64,000 bases of DNA from positions 1 to 64,000 of the forward strand of contig JAETQY010000017.1 of assembly GCA_021770445.1 (NCBI GenBank), written 5' to 3'. Of the stretch, positions 4,967 through 52,294 are shown in pieces. Within the stretch, counting starts at the first letter, position 1; each line of letters opens with the position of its first letter. Under the pieces are notes generated by a model. The model saw only the letters and a program-made list of their open reading frames with translations. It did no database searches and was not told the origin of the DNA. This DNA is from Bacillota bacterium. GTDB taxonomy: Bacteria > Bacillota > Clostridia > Oscillospirales > Oscillospiraceae. Position numbers and translations under genes: made by a program.

Positions 4967-5002
4967 GAAAACGGCCTCGTCCTGAGAAATAGGACGAAGC
5001 CG
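4967..5002 (-). terminator. T-box-controlled intrinsic terminator
   Basis: A 12-bp stem (4972-4983 with 4991-5002, one G-U pair) is followed on the minus strand by TTTTC. It lies between the T-box sequence and the first gene, the position of the regulated terminator in T-box leaders. Confidence 0.9.
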
Positions 5003-5224
5003 AATACTCCGTGGTACCACCTAAATTCATGGCACTTGGCCATGCACTTATTGCCCCTGTAACGGAGGGTGACCGTTCCAGCCTACTGGGCGTTCCGCCG
5101 GTTCAGCCGGACTGCTCACGGGTGAGCTTCGGCGGGAGGTCCTTCACAGGCGCTTACACCAGCCGCGCCCTCTCTTTGCATCCGGACAAGCCTACTATCC
5201 CGGTCATCGCTTTTATGATGATTG
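4967..5224 (-). promoter_or_regulatory. T-box leader RNA of the ilv operon
   Basis: Read on the minus strand, the leader has the stem I region with AGTAGGC and AGAGAG elements and then the T-box sequence itself, AGGTGGTACCACGG (complement near 5008-5022), which pairs with the tRNA acceptor end. It is followed immediately by a terminator hairpin (4972-5002) and the acetolactate synthase gene. T-box leaders sense uncharged tRNA. The specifier is probably in the GGACCTCCCG stretch (a CTC leucine reading is possible), but I cannot fix it by eye. Confidence 0.93.
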
Positions 5225-8627: not shown

Positions 8628-11006
8628 ATGATGATCAAATATCCCGTCCATAAGCTGGCCAAGGACTTTACCAAGAGCGGCAAGGTTTTGCCCTCTAAAG
8701 AGGTCATGGACATTTTGACCCAGTACGGCCATCCCCCCAAGAACCACATGCAGCCCCTCACCGATGAGGAGCTGTCCATCGTGTTCGAGCATCTGACCCA
8801 GCACAATCAGATTGATTCCATTGAGCAGGTCTATGCCGACGTCTACCACGAGCCGGAGGCCGCCCCCAAGAAGGAGGAGGCCAAGCCCGCCGCTTCCCAG
8901 GGGGAGAAGAAGGAGGCCAAGCCCGCTCAGGGACAGAGTGCCAAGCCCGCCGCCCCCCAGGGCGGACAGCAGAGCCAGCAGCCGGCCAAGCCCGCAGTCC
9001 AGCAGCCCGCGTCCCGCGTTCCCGCCAAGAAGGTGGTGGATACCCGGGGCGGCCCGGCGGTCAACCTGGACAAGTACGACGAGCGGCTGGAGAACTTCAC
9101 CGACCAGCGCCGGCAGGATGTGCGGGGCGGCAAGCAGAAGATTCAGCAGAAGAGCCAGCAGCGCCGCCAGCAGGGCGGCCGGGGCCCGTCGGGTAAGCGC
9201 CGCCAGGAGGAGCAGGACCGCCTGCGCCGCCTCCAGCTGGAGATTGCCAAGAAGGCCCCTGTCAAGGTGCTCATCCCCGACGAGATCGGGGTGGGCGAAT
9301 TGGCTTCCAGAATGAAGAAAACCGGAGCGGAAGTCGTGAAATGCCTCATCAAGAACGGGGTCATGGCCTCTCTCAGCGACATTATCGACTTCGACACCGC
9401 CGCCATCATCGCCGAGGAGATGGGCTGCAAGGTGGAGAAGGAAGTGATCGTCACCATCGAGGAGCGCCTCATCGACACCGCCGAGGACAAGGAGGAGGAC
9501 CTGGTGGGCCGGGCCCCCGTGGTGGTGGTCATGGGCCACGTGGACCACGGCAAGACCTCCCTCCTGGACTATATCCGCAGCGCCAATGTCACCGCCGGCG
9601 AGGCGGGCGGCATCACCCAGCACATCGGTGCCTATCAGGTGGACGTGAAGGGCAACCCCGTCACCTTCCTGGACACCCCCGGCCACGAGGCCTTTACCGC
9701 CATGCGGGCCCGGGGCGCCATGATCACCGATATCGCCATCCTGGTGGTGGCCGCCGACGACGGCATCATGCCCCAGACCATCGAGTCCATCAACCACGCC
9801 AAGGCGGCCAACATCCCCATCATTGTGGCCATCAACAAGATGGATAAGCCCACCGCCAACCCCGACCGGATCATGCAGCAGCTCACCGAGTACTCCCTGG
9901 TGCCGGAGGAGTGGGGCGGCGAGACCATCATCTGCCCCATCTCCGCCAAGACCGGCATGGGCATCGACAAGCTGCTGGAGATGGTGGTGCTCACCGCCGA
10001 GGTCCAGGAGCTGCGGGCCAACCCCAACCGCACCGCCCACGGCGCGGTCATCGAGGCCCGGCTGGACAAGGGCCGGGGCCCGGTGGCTACCCTGCTGGTG
10101 CAGAACGGTACCCTGAAGCAGGGCGACGTGATCATCGCCGGCACCGCTGTGGGCCGTGTCCGGGCTATGACCGACGCCCGGGGACAGAAGCTCACCGAGG
10201 CTGGCCCCTCCGTCCCCGTGGAGATCATCGGTATGGGCGAGGTACCCGGGGCCGGCGACGACTTCCACGCCGTGGCCGACGAGCGCATGGCCCGGGAGCT
10301 GGTGGAGCAGCGCAAGACCGAGCGGAAGGACGCCCTCACCAGCAATGTGGGCAAGGTCACCCTGGAGGACCTGTTCAGCCAGATCCAGGCCGGGGAGATG
10401 AAGAACCTTAACGTCATCGTCAAGGCCGACGTCCAGGGCTCCGCCGAGGCGGTGAAGGCCTCCCTGGAGAAGCTGTCCAACGAGGAGGTCCGGGTGCGGG
10501 TCATCCACTGCGCCGTGGGCGCCATCAGCGAGAGCGACGTGATGCTGGCCTCCACCTCCGGGGCCATCATCGTGGGCTTCAACGTCCGCCCGGACAACAA
10601 CGCCAAGGACTCCGCCGCCCGCATGGGGGTGGACATGCGGATGTATCGGGTCATCTACGACGCCATCAACGAGATCGAGGCGGCTATGAAGGGTATGCTG
10701 GCCCCCAAGTTCAAGGAGGTGGACCTGGGCCGGGCCGAGGTGCGCAACGTGTTCCGCATCACCGGCGTGGGCATGGTGGCCGGCTGCTATGTGCTAGACG
10801 GCAAGATGCAGCGCAACGCCCAGATGCGCCTGCTGCGGGACAACATCGTCATCTACGACGGCGCCATCGCCTCCCTCCAGCGTTTCAAGGACAGTGTGAA
10901 AGAGGTGGCCGCCGGCTACGAGTGCGGCATCACCTTCGAGAAATTCCAGGACATCAAGGAGGGCGACATCATCGAGGCCTTCCTCATGGAGCAGATCGAG
11001 GTCTAA
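8628..11006 (+). CDS. infB: Translation initiation factor IF-2
   Basis: GTPase that places initiator tRNA on the 30S subunit. The start ATG at 8628 (or 8631) is chosen because AGGAGG ends at 8616; an in-frame GTG inside that site is unlikely. An IF2N-type start is followed by a low-complexity Lys/Ala/Gln/Pro linker (about 75-205), a second IF2N domain (about 215-265), then the G domain: GHVDHGKTS near 302, DTPGHEAF near 348, NKMD near 402. The beta-barrel and C-terminal fMet-tRNA domains follow. 792 aa, normal for Firmicutes. Confidence 0.97.
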
Positions 11007-11033
11007 AAAGGAGGGGCCGCCGCAGGCGGCCGG

Positions 11034-11148
11034 CCAAACCGCGGCCCAACAAAGCGGGCGCAGTTTGGAGAGGACGAGCAGCGAAATGAGCGAGCCTTGC
11101 CCGAAGGGCGAGGCGAGGGATATGGAGCTTGCAAGGACGAGACCGACG
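11034..11148 (+). repeat. Structured intergenic repeat, copy A
   Basis: Two-stem-loop repeat, about 115 bp, between infB and the next gene. Stem I runs from CCAAACCG to CAGTTTGG, then the conserved GAGCAGCGAAATGAGCGAGC, a variable stem (CTTGCCC gaa GGGCGAG), and GAGGGATATGGAGCTTG ending in CGACG. Further copies are at 16226, 16980 and 31013, with separated halves at 63202 and 63285. A GC-rich hairpin (11147-11157 with 11162-11172) follows directly. Confidence 0.8.
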
Positions 11149-11193
11149 GGGCGGGCGCTTTCGCCCGCCCCGCTTTGCTTACGGAGGAAGAGA

Positions 11194-11532
11194 ATGAGCC
11201 GTGTCTATGTGTTGGCGGCCGACAGGGAGCTGCCTGAGCTGGAGCCGCTGCACTACTACCGCCAGGCGGTGGACGAACTGGGCTGGCCCATGAAGCCTTT
11301 CCGGTATGAATTTGTAATGGAAAAAGAAGAAACTGACCTGGTGAATCTGCGGGCCTATCTGACGGAAAACTTCTCTTCGGGAGAGGTTTTGGAGCTGTGG
11401 AGCGCCTGGCTGAGCGGCGACGTAAATAAAAAGTGCCCGCCTCGGTACCGGGGCAGGCTGGCGGATTTTGACCTTGAGGTGCTGGAGCAGTTTCTGTCTG
11501 CGAAAGAAATTTGTTTCGATATTACGGTTTAA
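11194..11532 (+). CDS. Hypothetical protein in the infB-rbfA interval
   Basis: A 112-aa acidic cytoplasmic protein (starts MSRVYVLAADRELPELEP, ends SAKEICFDITV). No signal peptide or membrane segment; it is rich in Glu, Leu and Tyr. The start is supported by ACGGAGGAAGAGA just upstream. The reading frame stays open through repeat copy A and could in principle be entered from the ATG at 11087 inside the repeat. I do not recognise the family; conserved position between infB and rbfA should be tested. Confidence 0.65.
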   Translation: MSRVYVLAADRELPELEPLHYYRQAVDELGWPMKPFRYEFVMEKEETDLVNLRAYLTENFSSGEVLELWSAWLSGDVNKKCPPRYRGRLADFDLEVLEQFLSAKEICFDITV

Positions 11533-38517: not shown

Positions 38518-38730
38518 TTGCTTACCGTCCCGCATTCAAAGAATGAAGTCCGACCTGATCATATCATAGAAGCTTTACCCATGTAAAGAGGATAGTAGGT
38601 ACAGATTTTAGATATTATTACCGAAATATTGACGGATCTTACTAGAACACTTCCCTGAAAGCGAGGCATTATGCTACAATATAACACAAGAGGATATGGG
38701 AACGCCTGCAGAGAACGAGGGGATGTGCCT

Positions 38731-39978
38731 ATGAACATTGTGATCGTCGGGAGTAGCGCCGCCGCACTGTCCGCCATGGAGCATTTTAGAGTCCATGACC
38801 GCAACAGCCAGGTTACTGCGGTTACAAAGGACTGTGGTATGCCTTATTCCAAGGTTCTGCTCCCCTATGTCCTGCGGGGGAGCGTCCCCTATAAAAATTT
38901 AACCATTCGAAGTGAGAAATATTTTCAAGACCTGGATGTCCAGTGTGTCCATGGGGAGGCGACCGCCTTGGACCGGGAGAGGCACTGTATTCGGCTGAAG
39001 GACGGCCGTGTCCTCTCCTACGACCGGCTGCTGATCGCCACTGGTGCCCGGGCCGCAGTACCCAACATCCCGGGCATCTGCCACGACCGGGTGTGCTACA
39101 TGCGGACAAAGGAGGAGCTAGACCATATGCTCCCCTTGCTGGAGCGCAACCCCAGGGTGGCAGTCATCGGTTCGGGCTTTGTGGCCCTTCAGGCGGCGTG
39201 GGCCGCCCGGTATCGGGGGTTGCCCGTCACCGTACTGGGACACCGGATTATGCCCACTGCCATCGACGAGGTCGGCGGCGAGTGTGTCGCCCGTGCGATC
39301 CGCGACTGCGGTGTACAGTTGCTGGCCCCGGTGGACACCCAGAGGATTGAGCATCTGCCAGACGGCTCTCTCCGGGTCTGGCTGAGCGGGGAGGAGTTCG
39401 TGGAGGCAGATGTGGTTCTGGTGGGTGCCGGAACCAGACCAAACATCGAATGGCTGGCCGGGAGCGGAATCCAGACCGAAAAGGGCATCCTGGTGGACGA
39501 GAACATGCGGACCAACGACCCTTGTATCTATGCGGCCGGGGATGTGGCCGCCGGCCCCACGGTGTTCGGCGAGGCCCACGGGATGCACTCCCTGTGGCCC
39601 ACGGCGGTGGAGATGGGAAAGACGGCGGGCTGTCAGATGGCGGGGGTGGACATGCCCTATCCGGGTAGCCTGAACATGAATGTGACGGAGATGTTCGGGG
39701 TGACTGTGGCCTCGGTGGGCAGGATTCGGAACCAGGATGTGGACGCCCGGCATCCCCTACCAGAGGAACTAGGGGATGGCTACTGCTGTGTGTTTGAAAA
39801 GGACGGCCGGCTGTGCGGGGCTTCTCTGGTGGGCAGCAGCGAGGGGGTCCCCTTCCTGGGGCGGCTGCGCCCGCTGATTGCGCATCATGAGCCCCTCTCC
39901 TGTCCGGTGGAGGAGCTGGGGTGGCTGGTCAACAAGAGGGCGTTTGCAAAAGCGCCGAGAGAGGGGTGGACAAGATGA
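38731..39978 (+). CDS. FAD-dependent pyridine nucleotide-type oxidoreductase
   Basis: A 415-aa flavoprotein likely passing electrons from NAD(P)H to the ferredoxin encoded next. GSSAAALSAMEHFR replaces the usual GxGxxG FAD motif at the N-terminus; the NAD(P) motif VIGSGFVALQAAWAAR lies at about 145-160 and CIYAAGDVAAGP (FAD motif 2) near 265. DCGMPYSKVLLPY holds a cysteine (about 36) at the position of the redox Cys of NADH oxidase/CoA-disulfide reductases. The start at 38731 follows GAGGGGATG; TACAAT at 38675 may be its -10. First of a five-gene operon. Confidence 0.88.
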   Translation: MNIVIVGSSAAALSAMEHFRVHDRNSQVTAVTKDCGMPYSKVLLPYVLRGSVPYKNLTIRSEKYFQDLDVQCVHGEATALDRERHCIRLKDGRVLSYDRLLIATGARAAVPNIPGICHDRVCYMRTKEELDHMLPLLERNPRVAVIGSGFVALQAAWAARYRGLPVTVLGHRIMPTAIDEVGGECVARAIRDCGVQLLAPVDTQRIEHLPDGSLRVWLSGEEFVEADVVLVGAGTRPNIEWLAGSGIQTEKGILVDENMRTNDPCIYAAGDVAAGPTVFGEAHGMHSLWPTAVEMGKTAGCQMAGVDMPYPGSLNMNVTEMFGVTVASVGRIRNQDVDARHPLPEELGDGYCCVFEKDGRLCGASLVGSSEGVPFLGRLRPLIAHHEPLSCPVEELGWLVNKRAFAKAPREGWTR

Positions 39979-40472
39979 AAATGGTAACAATTCTGCCAGA
40001 GCGGTGTGTGGGCTGTCGCAACTGTGAGATGGCTTGCGCTTTCGCTCAGAGCGGCGACAGCTGCAGCCGCAGGTGGTCCAATATCCGTGTGGATGTCTCC
40101 ACCGCCGAGCGGTTTGTCATGCCAATCATCTGCTTCCACTGTGACCAGGCGTGGTGCATGGCGGTCTGCCCTGCCAACGCTATCTCAAGGAACGGGGATA
40201 CCGGTGCGGTAGTAATCGACCCCACCCGCTGCGCCGGATGCAAAATGTGTATCCTGGCTTGTCCCTATGGAAACATCCATTTTGACCACGAGCAGCATAT
40301 CAGCCGGAAATGTGATCTGTGCGGCGGCGACCCGGAGTGCGTGAAGCACTGCATCAGCGGGGCGCTGAACTACGAGGAGATCGATGAGTTGATCGGCCGG
40401 AAACGGGATATCCTCGACCATAAGCTGGCCAAGGTGATGAAGGTACATCAGGGGAGGACCGACGATGAATGA
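39975..40472 (+). CDS. Four-cluster ferredoxin-type electron-transfer subunit
   Basis: A 165-aa iron-sulfur protein with 4x[4Fe-4S] cysteine pattern: CVGCRNCEMAC, CFHCDQAWCMAVCP, CAGCKMCILACP and CDLCGGDPECVKHC. This is the HycB/DmsB/FdhB-type subunit that couples a molybdopterin enzyme to its electron partner. It overlaps the FAD gene by 4 nt and the molybdoenzyme gene by 8 nt, which implies a three-subunit complex. Confidence 0.93.
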   Translation: MKMVTILPERCVGCRNCEMACAFAQSGDSCSRRWSNIRVDVSTAERFVMPIICFHCDQAWCMAVCPANAISRNGDTGAVVIDPTRCAGCKMCILACPYGNIHFDHEQHISRKCDLCGGDPECVKHCISGALNYEEIDELIGRKRDILDHKLAKVMKVHQGRTDDE

Positions 40473-42528: not shown

Positions 42529-43416
42529 ATGGCAAAACGGGATGAGCGCGTCTGGCCGCTGGCTGTGTTGTCGTTGATATGGTACCTCAGCTTTTGCGGG
42601 ATCGCAGCTATGGCAGAATACGGTCCTGTAGGAGTGTTCGCCGGAAATTCTATGTTTCTATCCGGCGGTGCACTCGCCCTTGTGGAAAAATTTCGACACA
42701 GATCCAGGGTGAAGTGGAAGAAGAAGAGTCTGCCCCCGGCGGCAACAGCAACGGTGTTCTATGCGCTGTATGTTGTCTCCGCCTCCTATCTGGCAGTCTA
42801 TTCCGGGGTGGTGGAACTGGCAGCAGTGTCCTCCTTGCAAAGTCTCGCTTTTTTGATCGGGTTTTCCTTGGTGAAGGAACTCTATATTCGGCAGAGGACT
42901 ATACTTTGCGTCGGGATCACTTCGATAGGCGCAGTATGCGCCATGGAGATTGCCGCCCCGGTTGGTTCTTTGTTCCTCTGGTGTGTTCTGCTTCTGGGGA
43001 CACTTCTGTGCTGGACCCTGTATGTGATCCTGACCCTAGACCTGATGGAAGCGTATCCGGTTGATTTTATTCTCGCGCGGCAGAACCTTACAGGCGGAGC
43101 TCTGGCCCTTTCAACCGCTGTTTTAGATCCCTCCGGCTTTTCCATCCCGGGGGGCGTGCCGGTTCTGTTTTTCTTATCGGGGGCCTGTCTCTGGGGCCTG
43201 GGAATGCCTCTCCTGCTTAAAGGGCTCCAGACACCGGATAAGATATCCTCCGATATCCTGTTCAGCGCAGTACCAATATGCTGTATGCTTGCCTGTAGGC
43301 TCGTGTTCGAGGGGGGCGGGTCTAGGCTGCAGATATTAGGACTTTGTTTACTGTGTGCGGGCACAGCCCTGGCATATTTTGATATGCGCGGGGCGAGCCA
43401 AAAAAGGAGTGTATAA
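42529..43416 (+). CDS. DMT/EamA-superfamily transporter
   Basis: A 295-aa protein with about ten membrane helices in two halves (AVLSLIWYLSFCGIAAMAEYG; ATATVFYALYVVSASYLAVYSG; LFLWCVLLLGTLLCWTLYVILT), like drug/metabolite transporters. It begins 12 nt after the molybdoenzyme gene and ends 2 nt before the antiporter gene, so it is probably co-transcribed and could export the product or import the substrate. Confidence 0.8.
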   Translation: MAKRDERVWPLAVLSLIWYLSFCGIAAMAEYGPVGVFAGNSMFLSGGALALVEKFRHRSRVKWKKKSLPPAATATVFYALYVVSASYLAVYSGVVELAAVSSLQSLAFLIGFSLVKELYIRQRTILCVGITSIGAVCAMEIAAPVGSLFLWCVLLLGTLLCWTLYVILTLDLMEAYPVDFILARQNLTGGALALSTAVLDPSGFSIPGGVPVLFFLSGACLWGLGMPLLLKGLQTPDKISSDILFSAVPICCMLACRLVFEGGGSRLQILGLCLLCAGTALAYFDMRGASQKRSV

Positions 43417-43418
43417 TT

Positions 43419-44825
43419 ATGGAAACAAAAAAGCCGTCACTGAAACTGTCGCTCATTGGCGTCCTCGGAGTATTAGTTATTCTTCTGTCCTGCGTGCTGA
43501 TTTTTAAAATCGACGTTATCATCGCCCTGACCGTCAGCATTGTCTATGTGGGCATCCTGGGGCACTTCAATGGTGTGACGCTGAGCGGACTGATTGAAGG
43601 GATGCAGGAGGGCGTGGCCAAGGCGTTGGTCGGTCTGCTGTTTTTCCCTCTGGTGGGTGCCATCATCGGCAGCTGGATCATCGGCGGGACCATCCCGGCC
43701 CTGGTGTATTATGGTCTGAATGTTTTGAATCCCCAGTTCTTCCTGATTTCATCGTTCCTGATCTGTAGTGCTCTGTCCCTGCTCATTGGCACCTCCTGGG
43801 GAACGGTGGGCACAGTGGGCCTGGCAATCGCTGGCGTGGCCATCAGCAGCAATCTGAGCATTCCTATCGGCGTAGTGGCCGGCAGTATCATCTCCGGCGC
43901 CTGGTTCGGCGACAAGATGTCCCCTATCTCCGACTCCACTGTTCTATCCGCCACCTCTGCGGAGACGGATGTGTATAACCATATTCGAGGCATGGCGTAC
44001 ACTACCATTCCCGCTTTCCTGATTTCCACGGTTATCTTCGGGATCATCAATTTCTTTTATGCGGGCAACGCCACCTTGAACTATGACGTGATCCACCCCA
44101 TTCAGGAAACGCTGGCGACCAACTTCAAAATCAACATTCTAGTGTTTCTGCCCCCCGTCGTCCTGGTTGTGCTGTGTGTCCTGCGAACCCACGCTTTCAT
44201 CTCTCTGCTGGGAGCCATCACCGCCGGGGCCTTCTGTAGTGTGGCCGTCCAAGGCAACTCCCTGATGGCCACCATGGATGCCATCATGAACGGTGTCCAT
44301 ATGGAAACCGCTATTGCGGAGGTCAACACGCTGGTCAACCGCGGTGGCATGAACAGTATGATGAGCTCCATGTTCCTGTGCATGGTGGCCGTCTGCATGG
44401 GCGGCACCCTAACCAAGACCCAGTTCCTCCATGTGATTATTGAGAATGTTGCCAAATATCTGCGTAGCAACGTGGCGCTGGTGTTCACTACTATGGTGTC
44501 CTGCGTGCTGAGCAATATGATGTTCGCAGACAACTATCTGAGCATGATTCTCAACGGCAACTTGTACCGTGACCTGTATGACGAGCGCGGCCTGGACCGC
44601 AGCATGCTCTCCCGGACCATTGAGGAGACCGCCACCATGACGGTGCCCATGATCCCCTGGACTCCCGCTGCTGCCTTCCTCACCGGCACCCTGGGGGTGA
44701 CGGTGGCCCAATACACACCCTACTGCGTACTCAACTTCGTCAGCCCTGTGGTGGGCCTGATCAGCGCCGCCACCGGGATTGGCCTACTGTATGTCAACGG
44801 GGCAAAGAAAAGAAGCAAAGCATAA
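43419..44825 (+). CDS. NhaC-family Na+/H+-type antiporter
   Basis: A 468-aa polytopic protein. Core motifs LIGTSWGTVGTVGLAIAGVA and GSIISGAWFGDKMSPISDST are diagnostic for NhaC-type carriers (Na+/H+ or substrate/product exchange such as malate-lactate). It ends the redox operon. Its first residues (KPSLKLSLIGVLG) and whole length align with the transporter domain of the sensor kinase that follows, so one of the two arose by duplication. Confidence 0.92.
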   Translation: METKKPSLKLSLIGVLGVLVILLSCVLIFKIDVIIALTVSIVYVGILGHFNGVTLSGLIEGMQEGVAKALVGLLFFPLVGAIIGSWIIGGTIPALVYYGLNVLNPQFFLISSFLICSALSLLIGTSWGTVGTVGLAIAGVAISSNLSIPIGVVAGSIISGAWFGDKMSPISDSTVLSATSAETDVYNHIRGMAYTTIPAFLISTVIFGIINFFYAGNATLNYDVIHPIQETLATNFKINILVFLPPVVLVVLCVLRTHAFISLLGAITAGAFCSVAVQGNSLMATMDAIMNGVHMETAIAEVNTLVNRGGMNSMMSSMFLCMVAVCMGGTLTKTQFLHVIIENVAKYLRSNVALVFTTMVSCVLSNMMFADNYLSMILNGNLYRDLYDERGLDRSMLSRTIEETATMTVPMIPWTPAAAFLTGTLGVTVAQYTPYCVLNFVSPVVGLISAATGIGLLYVNGAKKRSKA

Positions 44826-44880
44826 ACCCGTGTTCCCCTAGCCGGTTCTGGTTCGGGCCCTGGCCTGTGACCTGAGATAC

Positions 44881-44935
44881 CCCCCCTCTTCCATACCATT
44901 CCCCCCCCTTTACTGCGGTAAGAGGGGGGGGATGG
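44881..44935 (+). terminator. Probable terminator of the redox operon
   Basis: CCCCCCTCTT (about 44882-44891) pairs with AAGAGGGGGG (about 44921-44930), with a long C-rich loop; only a distant T-rich stretch (TTTCTTTT) follows. Confidence 0.45.
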
Positions 44936-44948
44936 CATATTTCTTTTG

Positions 44949-45044
44949 TGGTTATCGTGTTTAGTCAACCAGTCCCAAAATAATGGGGGGGCAACGGCAG
45001 TAACTTCCTTTCCACAGTGGTTTGTTGACTTATCACGATAACCA
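44949..45044. promoter_or_regulatory. Long imperfect inverted repeat upstream of the sensor kinase
   Basis: Arms 44949-44971 (TGGTTATCGTGTTTAGTCAA...) and 45018-45044 (...TTGACTTATCACGATAACCA) are near-complementary over about 23 bp with a 46-bp centre. It covers the likely promoter region between the antiporter and the transporter-kinase gene and may bind the AraC-type response regulator, or form a cruciform. Confidence 0.55.
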
Positions 45045-45084
45045 TGATTTCTTTTTCTTGTATTCGGATAGGAGCGATCTGTTT

Positions 45085-47550
45085 ATGCGGCAGCCATCCT
45101 TAAAACTGTCTTTGGCTGGGGCCCTTGGTGCCATTGTTATTCTGTTTCTTGGGCTGTTCCTTCTGCATCAGGAGATCACCCTTCTGCTTTTCCTGGACAT
45201 GGTTTATGTGGCCACAATCGCCAAGATCGACGGGCTCCGGGTTAGCGATCTGGTGGAGGGGATGTCCACCGGTTGCGCCCAGGCGCTGACTGGGCTGCTT
45301 TTCTTCCCACTGGTGGGCGCGCTGATGGGAATTTGGATACACTGTGGTACGATCCCCACTCTACTATATCACGGATTGAATCTCCTCCACCCCCGATATT
45401 TTCTGATTTCCTCTTTCTTACTGTGCAGCCTGGTGGCCCTGATCATTGGGACCTCCTGGGGGACAGTGGGCACTATCGGAATCGTTATTATAGGAGTGGC
45501 AGAGAGTAGCGGGGTTGACCTACCCATCGGCCTTGTGGTGGGCAGCATTGTCTCAGGAGCTTGGTTTGGGGATAAAATGTCCCCGATTTCCGACTCCACA
45601 CTCTTGACCACTACCGTCACGGGAGTGAAGGTCTATCCCCATATTCGTGCGATGGCATATACCACGCTGCCCTCCTATGCCCTGACTTTTCTGGTGTTTG
45701 GAGTTCTGAACCGTATATTGTCCAGAGGGACTAATCTGGACAAAGAGATTCTGCAACAGATGCGGGCAGGGCTGTCCAGCCAATATGAACTGAGCTTCCT
45801 GACCTTCCTGCCTCCTCTGATTCTCATGCTACTATGCTTTTTGCAGGTCCATGTCTTCGTGGCGCTGCTGTCCGGGATAGGAACTGGCGTTGTATGCAGT
45901 GTTTTGGTCCAGCACAACACCTTCCCTTCCGCCATGAATGCGCTGATGTCGGGTGGGGACACCAGAACCGGGCTGTCCGTCCTGGACGATCTGCTGAGTT
46001 GGGGCGGCATCGACGCAATGGTCCGGGGCTTCTATCTCTGCCTACTGGCTGTGTGCCTAGGAGGCGCACTGCAAAGGACAGGGTTCCTCTCCTGCATCAT
46101 CAGCCACAGCGCACGCTATCTGCGGTCTGATTTTGCACTGATCCTATCCACCATGTTTACCTGCACTCTTGGAAACTGCATCTTTTCGGACAACTATTTA
46201 AGCATCGTGCTGAACGGAGATGTCTATCAGCCGCTCTATCAGAAGAATGGGCTGTCCCTAACTATGCTTTCCCGGACCATTGAGGAGAGCGCTACTCTGT
46301 CCGCCCCGCTAATCCCGTGGACGGCAGCCGGGGTGTTCATATCGGAGACGCTGGGGGTCTCCGTACGGGAGTACGCCCCCTTTGTGATCCTGAACCTGCT
46401 GACCCCTGTGGTGTCCTTGTGCATGTGCCGCCTTAAAGTCGGCCTGATCACCGGGGAACAGGAGGAGCATCCCCAACCCAAGTGGTATCGGCGATACCGG
46501 ATTCGGAATAATCTACGGAACAAACTTCTTTTATCCTTTCTGTTTATCAGCATTGTGCCCACCACCGTGCTGTCCCTGTTGTTCCTCTCCATACAGGCCG
46601 ACATGGCGCAGTATGTCCAGACTGGACTGAATCTGAACGGTCTAACCGTACTCCGGCTGGCAATAATTATGGTCATCGTTTCTGTGTGTCTGGCATGCAC
46701 CATTTCAAACAGGATGTCCTGCGGAATCCGCACACTGGCAGAGGAAATGAAGACTCTCCAGGCGGGGAATTTTCGGCCGTCTCCGCCGCCAGATACCGGT
46801 GACGATGAGATCGGGATGCTAAACCACACTTTCCGCCAGATGAAGACGGAACTTGACAAGCTGGTCAACAACACACTGCGCCTTCAAATTAGTGAGCGTG
46901 ATGCCAGGCTGAAGGCGTTGCAGGCCCAAATCAGTCCGCATTTTCTATACAACGCCCTGGATTCGATTAACTGGGAGCTAATTCAGAAAGAGGAATATGA
47001 AATCAGTGAGATTCTGCTAGCCCTCTCCGATATGCTACGCTACAGTCTGGACCAGTACACAGGCCAGGTTTCCCTGGCCACAGAGTTGCTGCAGGCGGAA
47101 AACTATCTGAAAATTCAGAAAAACCGCTTTGTAGATCGGTTCAGTTATGTGTTGTCCTGTCCGAAGGATCTAGAAGAGCAGCAGGTGCCCAAGATGATCT
47201 TACAGCCCATCGTGGAAAATGCCATCTCACACGGACTGGAAAACCGGGAAAACGGCCTGGTTCAAATCTCCGTGGAGAGGGCAGGGGAGACCATACGGAT
47301 TGCGGTGGAGGACAACGGATGCGGTATTTCGGAGCAGCAGTTGGCAGAGCTCCGAAGCCACCTGACCCGGGAGGAATATTCTGGAGAGCAAGGGGATCAT
47401 ATTGGTTTGGTCAATGTGGGCCACCGCCTTCGGTATATATACGGAGCGTGTACGCAGCTTATATTAGAGAGCTCGGAAGGAATATACACACGGGTCATCG
47501 TGGCAGTCCCTGCGGATTTGGAGGAGGAGCATGAAGATATTGATTGTTGA
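45085..47550 (+). CDS. NhaC-type transporter fused to a sensor histidine kinase
   Basis: An 821-aa membrane protein with two complete parts. Residues 1 to about 450 are an NhaC-family carrier (LIIGTSWGTVGTIGIVIIG; GSIVSGAWFGDKMSPISDST) matching the neighbouring antiporter. From about 475 come two further helices (LLLSFLFISIVPTTVL; IIMVIVSVCLACTI), a HAMP-like linker, and a YesM/LytS-type kinase: QISPHFLYNALDSINW with H619, PIVENAISHGLEN (N box, about 709) and DNGCGIS/DHIGLVNVG (G boxes). The start at 45085 (MRQPSLKLSL) follows GATAGGAG and aligns with the antiporter start. It overlaps the response regulator by 20 nt. Transport or binding is probably the signal input. Confidence 0.93.
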   Translation: MRQPSLKLSLAGALGAIVILFLGLFLLHQEITLLLFLDMVYVATIAKIDGLRVSDLVEGMSTGCAQALTGLLFFPLVGALMGIWIHCGTIPTLLYHGLNLLHPRYFLISSFLLCSLVALIIGTSWGTVGTIGIVIIGVAESSGVDLPIGLVVGSIVSGAWFGDKMSPISDSTLLTTTVTGVKVYPHIRAMAYTTLPSYALTFLVFGVLNRILSRGTNLDKEILQQMRAGLSSQYELSFLTFLPPLILMLLCFLQVHVFVALLSGIGTGVVCSVLVQHNTFPSAMNALMSGGDTRTGLSVLDDLLSWGGIDAMVRGFYLCLLAVCLGGALQRTGFLSCIISHSARYLRSDFALILSTMFTCTLGNCIFSDNYLSIVLNGDVYQPLYQKNGLSLTMLSRTIEESATLSAPLIPWTAAGVFISETLGVSVREYAPFVILNLLTPVVSLCMCRLKVGLITGEQEEHPQPKWYRRYRIRNNLRNKLLLSFLFISIVPTTVLSLLFLSIQADMAQYVQTGLNLNGLTVLRLAIIMVIVSVCLACTISNRMSCGIRTLAEEMKTLQAGNFRPSPPPDTGDDEIGMLNHTFRQMKTELDKLVNNTLRLQISERDARLKALQAQISPHFLYNALDSINWELIQKEEYEISEILLALSDMLRYSLDQYTGQVSLATELLQAENYLKIQKNRFVDRFSYVLSCPKDLEEQQVPKMILQPIVENAISHGLENRENGLVQISVERAGETIRIAVEDNGCGISEQQLAELRSHLTREEYSGEQGDHIGLVNVGHRLRYIYGACTQLILESSEGIYTRVIVAVPADLEEEHEDIDC

Positions 47551-48595
47551 GGATGAGCCCAAGGCCAGAGTGGGACTAGCAATGTTGATACAAAGGATGG
47601 ACCCCTCTGCCCAGATTCAAACCACATCCAACGGCAAGGCGGCCCTTGCCATGTGCAGGGAGACGATGTTCGATATTATTTTCACCGACATCAAGATGCC
47701 CGGGATGAGCGGGCTGGAGATGCTGGACAAACTGGATACCTATTGCCAGCAGACCGTGATCGTCAGTGGCTATGCGGACTTCTCATATGCACAAACTGCG
47801 ATCCAATACGGCGTGGCGGACTATCTGCTAAAACCGGTTAGCCCGACCAAACTAAAAGAGCTACTGGTCCGGGTCAAAAAAAATGTCCACTCCATCAAAA
47901 AGACCTGCTTGGCTGGCTATTTACAGGACTACACCTTTTTGGAGGAGGACCATAGAAGATATCTGCACCAACGGCTAGACCTAAGTGACCAGGTACTCCT
48001 TCTTTGGAAGGAGCGCAACACCGGGGAGGAAGATGCGCAGAAAAATCATGAGGAACAGGCAAACCTATTCTCCGGGCTGGAGGGGGACGTATACTCCCTG
48101 ACCCAGGCGGGGATACGCCTTTGGGTGATTTCAGGCACAGCCGTAGAGGAAAAAGCGGCCCAGGAGGCAGCCGCCCAGTACGGGCTGAAGGCACAAATGG
48201 TGTCGACAGACCAACTCCCGGAATTCTATCACCAACTGACCCAGACGGAGTTGGCACAGGGTCAGGAACACACTGAGGGTAGTCGTACTGTGCGGCTGGT
48301 CAAACAGTTTATAAAAGAAAACTATGCCTCTGACATCAGCTTAAAGGTACTGTCCAAGATCACATATCTCCACCCCAATTATCTATCAAAAATCTTTAAG
48401 CGGGAGACTGGGGAAAACATTAGTGACTATATTTTAAACTACCGCATCGAACAGGCCAAGAAATTGCTAAAGGATCCCAGCTTGAAGATCTACGAGGTGG
48501 CGGAACTGTCCGGATTCCATACCTCAAAATATTTTGCGGCGCTCTTCAAAGGCATGGTTGGGATTACGCCCTCGCAATATCGAGACAGCTTATAA
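47531..48595 (+). CDS. YesN-type response regulator with AraC DNA-binding domain
   Basis: A 354-aa regulator: receiver domain (1-125) with IVEDEPKA acidic pair, phospho-acceptor D53 in FTDIKMPGMSG, and LKPVSPTKL; a variable middle; and two AraC helix-turn-helix motifs at about 255-354 (LKVLSKITYLHPNYLSKIFKRE; VAELSGFHTSKYFAALFK). It overlaps the transporter-kinase gene by 20 nt, so they form a pair. Likely targets are the 38731 operon and its own promoter (inference). Confidence 0.93.
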   Translation: MKILIVEDEPKARVGLAMLIQRMDPSAQIQTTSNGKAALAMCRETMFDIIFTDIKMPGMSGLEMLDKLDTYCQQTVIVSGYADFSYAQTAIQYGVADYLLKPVSPTKLKELLVRVKKNVHSIKKTCLAGYLQDYTFLEEDHRRYLHQRLDLSDQVLLLWKERNTGEEDAQKNHEEQANLFSGLEGDVYSLTQAGIRLWVISGTAVEEKAAQEAAAQYGLKAQMVSTDQLPEFYHQLTQTELAQGQEHTEGSRTVRLVKQFIKENYASDISLKVLSKITYLHPNYLSKIFKRETGENISDYILNYRIEQAKKLLKDPSLKIYEVAELSGFHTSKYFAALFKGMVGITPSQYRDSL

Positions 48596-48878: not shown

Positions 48879-49904
48879 ATGAAGCTGATGAAAACTGAGG
48901 ACGCGGTGGGACAGGTGCTCTGCCACGACATTACCCAAATCATCCGGGGAGTCACCAAGGACGCGGTGTTCCGCAAGGGACACGTGATCCGTCCGGAGGA
49001 CATCCCCGTCCTGCTCAGCGTGGGGAAGGACAACATCTACGTCTGGGAGAAGGACGAGACCAGGCTCCACGAGGACGAGGCAGTGGATATCTTGCGCCAG
49101 ATTTGCCAGGGGGAGGGGATGTCGGCCAGTGCCCCCAAGGAGGGTAAAATCGAGCTGACCGCCCAATATGACGGTCTGTTCCTGGTGGACGTGGAGGGCC
49201 TGCGACGGGTAAACAGCCTGGGCGAGATGATGATCGCCACCCGTCCCTCTGGCCTTCCGGTGAAACAGGGGGACAAGCTGTGCGGCACCCGGATAATTCC
49301 CCTGGTCATTGAGAAGGAGAAGATGGAACGAGCCCGGAAGACGGCGGGGAACAAGCCATTGCTGAAGCTGCTCCCCCTACGACCCCAAAAATACGGTTTG
49401 GTCACCACAGGAAACGAGGTGTTTTACGGCCGTATTCAGGATACTTTTACCCCGGTGATCCAGGAGAAGCTGGAGGAGTACGGCTGCACTATGGCCGCCC
49501 ATGTGGTACTGGACGACAACCAGGAAAAAATAACCGCCGCCATCCAGCAAATGCTGGACGCCGGCTGTGAGATGGTGCTGTGTACCGGCGGGATGAGCGT
49601 GGACCCAGACGACCGGACCCCGGCGGCTATTCGGGCCGCTGGGGTGGATATCGTCAGCTACGGTGCGCCGGTTCTGCCCGGGGCCATGTTCCTGATGGCC
49701 TATACCCAGGACGGCCGGCCGGTGTGCGGTCTGCCCGGGTGCGTCATGTACGCCAGGCGAACCATCTTCGATCTGGTTCTCCCCCGGCTGCTGGCCGATG
49801 TGCCCGTCACGGCGGAGTGGCTGGCCGGCCTGGGCCACGGCGGACTGTGTCTGAACTGCCCGGAGTGCCATTTCCCCAACTGCGGGTTCGGAAAGGGAGT
49901 ATAG
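48879..49904 (+). CDS. MoeA-like molybdopterin-binding protein with Cys-rich tail
   Basis: A 341-aa protein. The N-terminal part (MKLMKTEDAVGQVLCHDITQ; VFRKGHVIRPEDIP) differs from canonical MoeA. The MoCF-binding domain lies at about 165-300: YGLVTTGNEVFYGRI, LCTGGMSVDPDDRTPAAIR, and GLPGCVMYARRTIFD. It ends CLNCPECHFPNCGFGKG with four closely spaced cysteines, which suggests metal or cluster binding. The start at 48879 follows GAAGAAGAGGGG. It may act in Mo insertion for the island enzyme. First gene of the second cofactor operon. Confidence 0.83.
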   Translation: MKLMKTEDAVGQVLCHDITQIIRGVTKDAVFRKGHVIRPEDIPVLLSVGKDNIYVWEKDETRLHEDEAVDILRQICQGEGMSASAPKEGKIELTAQYDGLFLVDVEGLRRVNSLGEMMIATRPSGLPVKQGDKLCGTRIIPLVIEKEKMERARKTAGNKPLLKLLPLRPQKYGLVTTGNEVFYGRIQDTFTPVIQEKLEEYGCTMAAHVVLDDNQEKITAAIQQMLDAGCEMVLCTGGMSVDPDDRTPAAIRAAGVDIVSYGAPVLPGAMFLMAYTQDGRPVCGLPGCVMYARRTIFDLVLPRLLADVPVTAEWLAGLGHGGLCLNCPECHFPNCGFGKGV

Positions 49905-49907
49905 CGG

Positions 49908-50399
49908 ATGGAACAGAAGTGGACCCATGTGGACGCCAGCGGCAACGCGGTGATGGTGGACGTGAGCGAGAAGGCGGTCACCAGCCGGGCCGCCGCCGCG
50001 TCCGGGCGCATTGCCATGAGCCGGGAGTGCTTCGCCATGGTGGCGGAGGGCCGGGCCAAAAAGGGGGATGTGCTGGGAGTGGCACAGGTGGCGGGCATCA
50101 TGGCCGCCAAACGTACCAGCGATCTGATCCCCCTGTGTCACCGCCTCAACCTGACGGGCACCGAGGTGACCTTTCGCCTGCTCCCGGAGGACTGCTCTAT
50201 CGAGGCAGTCTGTACCGTAAAGTGCAGCGGCAAAACCGGCGTGGAAATGGAAGCTCTCACCGGCGTCTCCACCGCGCTGCTTACCGTCTACGACATGTGC
50301 AAGGCGGTGGACAAACGGATGGTCATTGCCGATATCCACCTGCTGGAGAAACACGGGGGCAAGAGCGGCGACTTTACTTTTGAGGACGGAGAGACATGA
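49908..50399 (+). CDS. moaC: Cyclic pyranopterin monophosphate synthase
   Basis: Second step from GTP towards molybdopterin, acting with MoaA. 163 aa; [39 protein letters not shown] and [17 protein letters not shown] are MoaC signatures. Starts 3 nt after the upstream stop and overlaps moaA by 4 nt. Confidence 0.95.
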
Positions 50400-51355
50400 C
50401 GGACCAATTCGGACGTGAGATCAATTATATGCGCCTGTCCGTCACCGACCGGTGCAACCTGCGGTGCCGATACTGTATGCCGGAGGGCGTGGAATTTCTG
50501 GATCACAGCCAGATCCTCCGCTACGAGGAAATACTGGAGATCGTCCGGGCGGCGGTAGAGCTGGGGATCGTCCATTTCAAGGTCACCGGGGGTGAGCCTC
50601 TGGTTCGGCGGGACTGCGTGGACTTCATCCGCCGGCTGAAACAACTGCCGGGGATCCGGACGGTATCTCTGACCACCAACGGGGTGCTGCTGGCTCCCCT
50701 GGCCCGGGAGCTTGCGGAGGCCGGGGTGGACTGGGTGAACATCAGCCTGGATGCCCCCGGTCGGGCGGACTACGCCGCCGTCACCGGCTTCGACGCCCTG
50801 AACCGGGTGCTGACCGGGATGGACGCCTGCGAGGAGGCGGGGCTGCCCTTCAAGCTCAACTGCGTGCTCCTTCCGGACAGCCGGGATCGCCTGATCCCCC
50901 TGGCCCGCTTCGCCCGGGAGCGGGACATCGACGTGCGGTTTATCGAGATGATGCCCATTGGACTGGGCGCGGACAGTCCCGGACTAGCCTGGGAGGAGGC
51001 GCTGGCCGTCCTGCGGCGGGAGTGGCCCGACCTCCATTCTGTGGAGGAGCGCCGGGGCAACGGCCCCGCCCGATACTACGTCAGCGGGGCGCTCCGGGGG
51101 TGCATCGGCGCTATTGACGCGGTGAGCCACAAGTTCTGTGCTCAATGCAACCGGGTACGCCTGACCAGCACCGGACAGTTAAAGCCCTGCCTGTGCTACA
51201 GCCAAGGGGCCGACCTGCGGGAAGTCCTGCGGACATGCCCGGAAAAGCTGACCGAAACCATGCGGGACGCCATTTTTCACAAGCCCCGGGCCCACTGCTT
51301 CGACCGCTCCGGGGATATCACAGAGCAAAAGTGCATGAGCCAGATAGGAGGATAG
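50396..51355 (+). CDS. moaA: GTP 3',8-cyclase
   Basis: Radical SAM enzyme of molybdopterin synthesis, 319 aa. The N-terminal cluster motif [12 protein letters not shown] (about 19-30) binds [16 protein letters not shown] follows. The C-terminal second cluster motif is [20 protein letters not shown] (about 245-264). The extreme C-terminal GG typical of MoaA is present (SQIGG). Overlaps moaC. Confidence 0.95.
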
Positions 51356-51358
51356 GGA

Positions 51359-52294
51359 ATGGGAAAAGTGACCGCCATCTGCACCAGCCCCGCCAGAGGG
51401 ACGCAGAAGACATTCCAGACCAGCGGGGAGTTTGTCGTAGACTGGGGCATTCAAGGGGACGCCCACGCCGGGCACTGGCACCGGCAGGTGAGCCTGCTCA
51501 GCGCGGACAAGGTTCGGCAATTCAATGAAAAGGGCGCGGGGGTGGAGCCCGGCGCCTTCGGGGAGAACCTGGTGGTGGAGGGCTTTGACTTTCGGGCCCT
51601 GCCCGTGGGCGCCCTGCTGCGCTGCGGCCCGGTGCTGCTGGAAATCACCCAGATCGGCAAGGAGTGCCACAGCCACTGTGAGATTTTTAAAAAGATGGGG
51701 GACTGTATCATGCCCCGGGAGGGTGTATTCGCCCGGGTGTTGGAGCCGGGGCCCATCCGCGTGGGGGACGAGATGACCCTCCAGCCCCGCACATCCCCCC
51801 GAACCTGGCAGGCGGCGGTAATCACCCTCAGCGACAAGGGGGCGGCAGGAGAGCGGGAGGACAAAAGCGGCCCCGCCATCGCCCGCCGTCTGGAGGAAGC
51901 GGGATACGAGGTGACGGAGCGGCTTCTACTGGCCGACGACCCGGAGCTGTTGAAGCGCCACCTTGTCCGCTTGGCCGACCAGCGGCAGCTTGACCTGATC
52001 CTGACCACCGGCGGCACTGGCTTCGGCCCCCGGGACACCACCCCGGAGGCCACCCTGTCGGTGGCCCACCGGAACGCCCCCGGTATCGCCGAGGCCATCC
52101 GGGCGACCTCCATGGCCATCACCCCCCGGGCCATGCTCTCCCGGGGCGTGTCCGTCATCCGGGGCAAGACTCTGATTGTCAACCTGCCCGGCAGTCCCAA
52201 GGCCTGTATGGAGAGCATGGACGTGTTTCTGGATACGATCCCCCACGCCCTGGAGCTGCTGCGGGGTACCGTGTCGGACTGCGCCCGCACCTGA
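51359..52294 (+). CDS. MOSC domain-MogA fusion protein
   Basis: A 311-aa bifunctional protein. Residues 1-150 are a MOSC domain (GIQGDAHAGHWHRQVSLL; GAFGENLVVEGFD; GKECHSHCEIFKKMGDC) of the sulfur-carrier/cofactor-handling type. From about 155 follows a MogA/MoaB molybdopterin adenylyltransferase: AAVITLSDKGAAGEREDKSG, LILTTGGTGFGPRDTTPEA, NLPGSPKACMES. The combination could channel adenylylated molybdopterin. It sits between moaA and the molybdate transporter. Confidence 0.88.
   Translation: MGKVTAICTSPARGTQKTFQTSGEFVVDWGIQGDAHAGHWHRQVSLLSADKVRQFNEKGAGVEPGAFGENLVVEGFDFRALPVGALLRCGPVLLEITQIGKECHSHCEIFKKMGDCIMPREGVFARVLEPGPIRVGDEMTLQPRTSPRTWQAAVITLSDKGAAGEREDKSGPAIARRLEEAGYEVTERLLLADDPELLKRHLVRLADQRQLDLILTTGGTGFGPRDTTPEATLSVAHRNAPGIAEAIRATSMAITPRAMLSRGVSVIRGKTLIVNLPGSPKACMESMDVFLDTIPHALELLRGTVSDCART

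Follow-up and report, generated by a model that had tools for sequence, protein, structure and literature searches.

We describe a gene in which a carrier of the NhaC family is joined, within one unbroken reading frame, to a YesM-type histidine kinase. The gene lies in a 64,000-nucleotide stretch of DNA (the window: positions 1 to 64,000 of contig JAETQY010000017.1, assembly GCA_021770445.1) from a Bacillota bacterium of the family Oscillospiraceae, where it is surrounded by genes for a molybdoenzyme and for synthesis of the molybdenum cofactor. That the carrier-kinase fusion is real is confirmed by its open frame and domain content. As to what it does, we lean, with modest confidence, toward a single-chain sensor kinase, or transceptor, in which the NhaC carrier domain stands where a YesM-type kinase would otherwise have its extracytoplasmic sensor. 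A wider claim, which we advance tentatively and hold to be nearly but not quite as probable as its opposite, is that the gene represents an undescribed transceptor class, in which an elevator-type NhaC became the sensor of a YesM-type kinase, having started as its partner in trans, and switches on a molybdoenzyme pathway when the substrate is present.

The reading frame is open from a TTG at 45022 or an ATG at 45085 to the stop at 47550, and the ATG is the better start because an AGGAG (45070-45074) stands 10 nucleotides upstream of it; this upholds the start chosen in the first-pass annotation, which was made from the sequence alone, and gives a product of 821 amino acids. Pfam places Na_H_antiporter (best stretch residues 158-445, E 1.5e-49), HAMP (548-590), His_kinase (607-686) and HATPase_c (704-810) in that order along the chain, confirming the claim in that annotation of a complete NhaC carrier fused to a YesM-type kinase in one open reading frame. 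The assembly sequence holds no in-frame stop from 46411 to 46600, the region around the junction in which (at about 46440-46560) the first-pass annotation had advised looking for one, and both other frames are interrupted by stops in it.

The carrier half looks intact, judging from its sequence and predicted structure. It aligns with the neighbouring, separate NhaC over 454 residues with 48% identity and without a gap (E 9e-155), and the motifs GTSWGTVGT and GDKMSPISDST are identical in the two, as had been claimed for the first 450 or so residues. With 169.4 bits against PF03553 (gathering score 23) the fusion falls within the NhaC family; on the TIGR00931 model, with an equivalog cut-off of 370 bits, it scores 344.4, below the line, and the neighbour 389.5, above it. 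When columns conserved in at least 85% of 67 other NhaC-like rows were counted, the fused carrier kept 49 of 58 and its neighbour 51; with four distant rows left out (63 rows) the figures were 53 and 56 of 65, and in a second alignment, A2, against 36 other rows, they were 53 and 54 of 58. Carrier and kinase halves were modelled separately. The AlphaFold2 model of residues 1-480, built from 38 sequences, has a mean predicted local distance difference test (pLDDT) of 92.6 and a predicted template-modelling score (pTM) of 0.90, and its best Foldseek match is an integrative model of MleN (template-modelling score 0.78, 30% identity), which we take to be a malate/lactate antiporter. Looser matches (about 0.4-0.55) include TRAP transporters, INDY, ArsB and others, folds that presumably belong to the ion-transporter (IT) superfamily and share its elevator mechanism.

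The fused and neighbouring carriers are sisters in both of the trees that we built (support 100/98 in the first and 100/99 in the second). The first tree comprised 65 of 73 rows (three truncated copies of window genes, one truncated copy from locus L102 and four distant NhaC-like rows were left out) and carried a warning of long branches and unusual composition for the fused row and some others. The second, with 21 of the 38 rows of A2, gave no long-branch warning and contained a clade of nine rows (100/100) made up of the fused and neighbouring carriers, both L102 NhaCs, the NhaC of locus L051 in Niameybacter massiliensis and four NhaCs from other contexts. The branch of the fused carrier is about twice as long as that of its sister, 1.04 versus 0.51 in the first tree and 0.98 versus 0.41 in the second. 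Because of the sister placement, the longer branch and the conserved core, the most likely history of the pair is a duplication, after which the fused copy evolved faster while retaining most of its core. Close NhaC relatives at L048, L049 and L050 (at about 9860-11380) adjoin, from a look at the sequence, an AraC-type regulator and fucose/rhamnose-pathway-like genes, so this NhaC subfamily also occurs away from molybdoenzymes.

The kinase half matches PF06580 and has H619 (in PHFLYN), the N box and the G boxes, bearing out the earlier description of a full kinase, and its gene overlaps by 20 nucleotides that of a YesN-type regulator. What it does not have is the large extracytoplasmic sensor that is usual, if not strictly defining, for YesM kinases: hydropathy gives two transmembrane helices separated by an outside loop of 22 residues (a model of this half, with pLDDT 79.9 and pTM 0.55, was used only for the helix positions). 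In 20 other YesM kinases, hand-picked among the matches listed in a search of 149 related genomes, the loop measures about 138-263 residues in 17, is short in two and could not be judged in one. The linker joining the halves (residues 450-481) has a net charge of +5, which by the positive-inside rule suggests that the C-terminus of the carrier is cytoplasmic in the fusion; two further transmembrane helices would then bring the chain back to the cytoplasm, the site of HAMP and the kinase.

The nearest kinase that we found is encoded at the end of a counterpart cluster in N. massiliensis (L051), which comprises a flavin/nicotinamide adenine dinucleotide (FAD/NAD) oxidoreductase (45% identity to that of the window), an iron-sulfur (Fe-S) protein (59%), a molybdoenzyme (53%), one NhaC (36%), molybdenum cofactor genes and, by look only, an EamA-like gene. 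There the kinase is a separate protein of 368 residues, with a regulator encoded after it (33% identity across the full length); its residues 9-363 align with residues 476-814 of the fusion at 37%, and in the kinase core the identity is 44%, against 38% or less for the 20 other YesM kinases. It, too, has two predicted transmembrane helices, with an outside loop of 29 residues. Since the kinase is nearly sensorless in both genomes and the carrier occupies the sensor position in the window, the comparison points to the carrier as the input of the kinase, in trans in Niameybacter and fused in the window. This applies to a kinase and a carrier the long-established reasoning by which the fusion of two proteins suggests that they act jointly. 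On the 5′ side of the Niameybacter cluster, at L051:442-3623, there are genes for a glycyl-radical enzyme (PFL2-like, below all curated cut-offs) and an activase-like protein.

How would such a transceptor operate? The carrier domain would bind a molecule that the molybdoenzyme consumes or produces, probably an organic anion that the neighbouring NhaC also handles. Binding, or an elevator-like movement of the carrier, would displace its last helix together with the basic linker, and this shift would pass to the two kinase helices and HAMP, upon which the kinase would phosphorylate the YesN-type regulator and the latter would tune expression of the genes for the molybdoenzyme, NhaC and/or the molybdenum cofactor. 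The regulator probably does control the surrounding molybdoenzyme and cofactor genes, because the two-component genes lie inside the cluster here and at the cluster end in Niameybacter. The fusion itself may have originated when an NhaC gene was duplicated locally and the second copy became joined to a kinase that already worked beside such a carrier.

Several observations weigh against this reading. The carrier domain of CbrA, itself a fused transporter-kinase, is dispensable for signalling (PMC7096432), so fusion alone is no proof of sensing via the carrier, and it is for this reason that our confidence is not higher. The fusion gene is a single fused example from a draft genome. NhaCs and such kinases are not general neighbours, as only one (L051) of the 24 NhaC loci from the GTDB-wide scan given below carries a match to the fusion kinase, and the cluster of genome G679 (L102, L111, L112) has the enzyme module, two NhaCs and an IclR-type regulator, with no match to the fusion kinase found in about 44 kb. 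The two short-loop kinases of the comparison set (L130:1269-2327, with 4 residues, and L131:30-1214, with 21) lack an adjacent NhaC within the 3-3.7 kb that were read, and the tail is positive in just 20 of 37 standalone NhaCs, so that the charge of the linker is no family-wide sign. A comparison of the carrier sites of the two paralogues, which the first-pass annotation had proposed, gave no specific support for a ligand shared by the fusion and its neighbour, nor for the division of labour suggested there, in which the neighbour would move the ligand and the fused copy would sense it or an ion gradient: the fusion agrees with the neighbour at 52 of 70 motif-core positions and with four NhaCs from other contexts at 52-54. 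When only the 28 core positions that vary within the family are counted, the corresponding numbers are 15 and 17-19. Finally, the inverted repeat upstream of the fusion gene was found nowhere else in the host genome at up to two mismatches, and thus gives no regulon motif. Since the control pairs of the motif comparison did as well or slightly better, we rejected motif agreement as evidence of a shared ligand. Separately, L130 and L131 each lie directly upstream of a gene resembling an ATP-binding cassette (ABC) ATPase, and it may be a more general pattern that YesM kinases with little sensor stand beside transporters.

A question arising from the case of CbrA is whether the NhaC half is simply a working carrier tethered to a kinase whose signal comes from elsewhere (from the state of the membrane, from HAMP or from a cytoplasmic factor), with the fusion only modulating the outcome. 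That most conserved carrier columns are kept would fit; CbrA, however, can draw on a PAS domain as another sensor, whereas in the fusion Pfam identifies nothing but HAMP between membrane helices and kinase, and the outside loop measures 22 residues, all of which makes the explanation unlikely, if still to be reckoned with. Does the NhaC domain instead report Na+ or pH outside the cell, and not an organic ligand? Family names and models do say Na+/H+ antiporter, but a cluster made up of a molybdoenzyme, an NADH module and genes of cofactor synthesis is not obviously one for ion homeostasis, and the nearest fold match is MleN, presumably a malate/lactate antiporter; we regard a sensor of ion gradients as improbable. 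We give even less credence to an artefact, whether an assembly error in the draft that ran together an NhaC gene and a kinase gene of about 375 codons, or a kinase additionally translated from an internal start. The existence of only one, draft, example is compatible with it, as are an in-frame ATG at 46423 that would yield a kinase of 375 residues, close to the length of the Niameybacter kinase, and an AGGAGG within the linker (46460-46465), possibly the fossil ribosome-binding site of a once-separate kinase gene. Yet within usable range downstream of the AGGAGG there is no in-frame ATG, GTG or TTG (AAG TGG TAT are the codons around the position of the Niameybacter start) and the ATG at 46423 has no clear ribosome-binding site in front of it, so more than one place would have to be changed to obtain separate genes. 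Least credible of all is a decaying relic without function, for even if the fused carrier has the longer branch and slightly fewer conserved columns than its neighbour, there are no stops, most conserved columns are kept, the kinase boxes are intact, the regulator gene overlaps the 3′ end, and a carrier turning from transport to sensing could likewise change faster.

Is the transceptor reading helped by further fusions? No second match to both halves was found among the matches listed for 149 genomes (the host included, with 63 others of its genus; up to six candidates per genome), for 391 genomes of the class (host included; E ≤ 1e-60; up to two per genome) or for 305 genomes of the order of Niameybacter (E ≤ 1e-75; up to three per genome), samples that may overlap. 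A GTDB-wide contig scan for exact matches to six octapeptides, which is not exhaustive, returned 38 stretches with 24 relatives, all of them NhaC and none in a fused reading frame. Among plasmids, 188 records had a match and none covered at least 80% of the query; among viral contigs, two stretches contained no relative. The earlier statement that no NhaC-kinase class is described agrees with the literature searched, where none appeared among the matches listed (subscription literature being mostly outside its coverage). As far as these tools reach, the combination of carrier and kinase is new, resting on one fused example and one unfused relative.

Table 1. Positions, in the window, of the NhaC-kinase fusion gene, its parts and the genes around it.
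Feature	Position	Strand	Basis
FAD/NAD oxidoreductase, PadH/NirB-like, below curated cut-offs	38671..39978	+	Profile scores
4Fe-4S electron-transfer subunit	39921..40472	+	Profile matches
Molybdopterin oxidoreductase, 683 amino acids	40465..42516	+	Profile matches, PDB relatives
EamA-like membrane protein	42529..43416	+	27.6 bits, just below the Pfam cut-off of 28.2
Separate NhaC carrier; both trees group it as sister to the fused carrier domain	43419..44825	+	Pfam, TIGR00931, alignment, trees
Intergenic candidate regulatory region	44826..45084	+	C/G-rich stem and inverted repeat
NhaC-kinase fusion gene, 821 amino acids	45085..47550	+	Open frame, Pfam, AGGAG before the ATG
NhaC carrier domain, residues 1-449, predicted IT-superfamily-like fold	45085..46431	+	Pfam, alignment, AlphaFold2, Foldseek, conserved columns
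Short basic linker, about residues 450-480	46432..46524	+	Frame and charge count
Two predicted transmembrane helices, 481-499 and 522-540, with 22-residue outside loop	46525..46704	+	Hydropathy, kinase-half model
HAMP 548-590, His_kinase 607-686 with H619, HATPase_c 704-810	46726..47547	+	Pfam, motif boxes
Response regulator, receiver and AraC-type helix-turn-helix (YesN-type)	47531..48595	+	Pfam; overlaps the 3′ end of the fusion gene by 20 nucleotides
Molybdenum cofactor genes: MoeA-like, moaC, moaA, MOSC-MogA	48879..52294	+	Profile scores

Nitrate reductase was considered as an identity for the molybdoenzyme, but the literature searched offered nothing useful on it. Among PDB structures its best relatives are thiosulfate reductase, acetylene hydratase and formate dehydrogenases, and the FAD subunit is PadH-like (252.6 bits against a cut-off of 475); from these likenesses, the cluster (Table 1) would seem to act on a small molecule in a redox step linked to NADH. 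At E ≤ 1e-110 the molybdoenzyme was found in its own genome only, both among the 149 genomes and among the 391. At E ≤ 1e-80 there were matches in 3 of 246 genomes of the order of Niameybacter, that species included (60%, 53% and 35% identity), and in 40 of 348 genomes of the phylum, the host included (the next best at 49%, 47% and 47%). In seven neighbourhoods (12.8-19.9 kb) the arrangement of FAD subunit, Fe-S protein, enzyme and NhaC occurs in L102 only, L051 being the other example. The cluster at L102:5812-12847 is flanked by two NhaCs (41% and 40% identical to the window gene at 43419-44825), with the IclR-type regulator upstream, and duplication of NhaC around a molybdoenzyme may have occurred more than once. 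Relatives of the molybdoenzyme at L103:8884-10923, L104:8334-10481 and L105:8766-10856 (46-49%) adjoin, from a look at the sequence, genes resembling oligopeptide-type ABC transporters and methyltransferases, and in L105 histidine-degradation-like genes as well, hinting at other substrates within the family. Third-position guanine-cytosine content is 0.62-0.67 in the fusion gene, alike in both its halves, and in the regulator gene, 0.74 in the neighbouring NhaC gene and 0.80-0.86 in the molybdenum cofactor genes; the lower values may reflect a different origin. Outside the finding described here, the window also contains a T-box leader (4987-5216, minus strand, 125.6 bits).

The intergenic region in front of the fusion gene may be its operator or leader. 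It holds a C/G-rich stem (44893-44938), which was absent from the output of the terminator scan, and a 21-nucleotide inverted repeat (44949-44969 and 45024-45044, 54 nucleotides between the arms, 90% complementarity), which, being unique in the host genome, does not count as a dispersed element. The region folds better than its shuffles (z -2.83, with 1 of 200 as good); a scan for promoters and terminators showed no excess over shuffles, and Rfam at gathering scores had no match in 44826-45084.

If the transceptor reading is true, it would place an IT-superfamily carrier in a sensor role, and elevator-type transporters could thus also serve as receptors; the fused types named in the available portions of the transceptor papers cited here use SLC5 or Amt carriers. 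The separate Niameybacter kinase and the fusion would form a natural before-and-after pair for studying whether a carrier can inform a kinase from a separate chain and what difference their fusion makes, and the ligand of the fusion would provide a handle on an uncharacterised molybdoenzyme cluster.

The known systems that come closest are the SLC5/STAC kinases (CbrA, CrbS, RpuS), in which, as in the fusion, a carrier precedes a histidine kinase in one chain and there is a cognate regulator, so that the likeness to CbrA drawn in the first-pass annotation is supported. CbrA is a fused transporter-kinase (PMC7096432, PMC13022988) and has been called a rare transceptor (PMC13022988). The fusion differs from these kinases in that its carrier is an NhaC (PF03553), its kinase is YesM-type with two extra transmembrane helices and HAMP, and its regulator has an AraC-type helix-turn-helix. 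Pfam gave no match to SLC5, STAC, PAS or Amt at E ≤ 0.01 (its library may lack a STAC model), and only about 31 residues separate the last carrier helix from the next transmembrane helix, compared with the 72 residues given for the STAC domain of CbrA; on its domain content, the fusion is not a member of the SLC5/STAC class. Ks-Amt5 is likewise a fused transporter-kinase (PMC5764959), one that binds ammonium without transporting it efficiently (PMC8534201), and resembles the fusion in using a transport-protein fold as the sensor of a kinase, although that fold belongs to the Amt family rather than NhaC. BceS has no outside sensor domain and relies on its transporter (PMC8534201). The likeness to BceS-BceAB lies in a kinase cued by a transporter, the Niameybacter kinase being nearly without an outside domain. 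In DctA/DcuS, too, a carrier is reported to act in trans, as sensor or co-regulator; in both of these systems, unlike the fusion, the carrier is not covalently joined to the kinase, and carrier and kinase belong to other families. With the NhaC/MleN carriers (PF03553, TIGR00931) the N-terminal half shares motifs, length and predicted fold, but it continues into a C-terminal kinase and scores below the TIGR00931 cut-off. With YesM/YesN systems the fusion shares a PF06580 kinase encoded beside a regulator with a receiver and an AraC-type helix-turn-helix, and it departs from them in having no large extracytoplasmic domain and, ahead of the two kinase helices, a carrier domain in its place.
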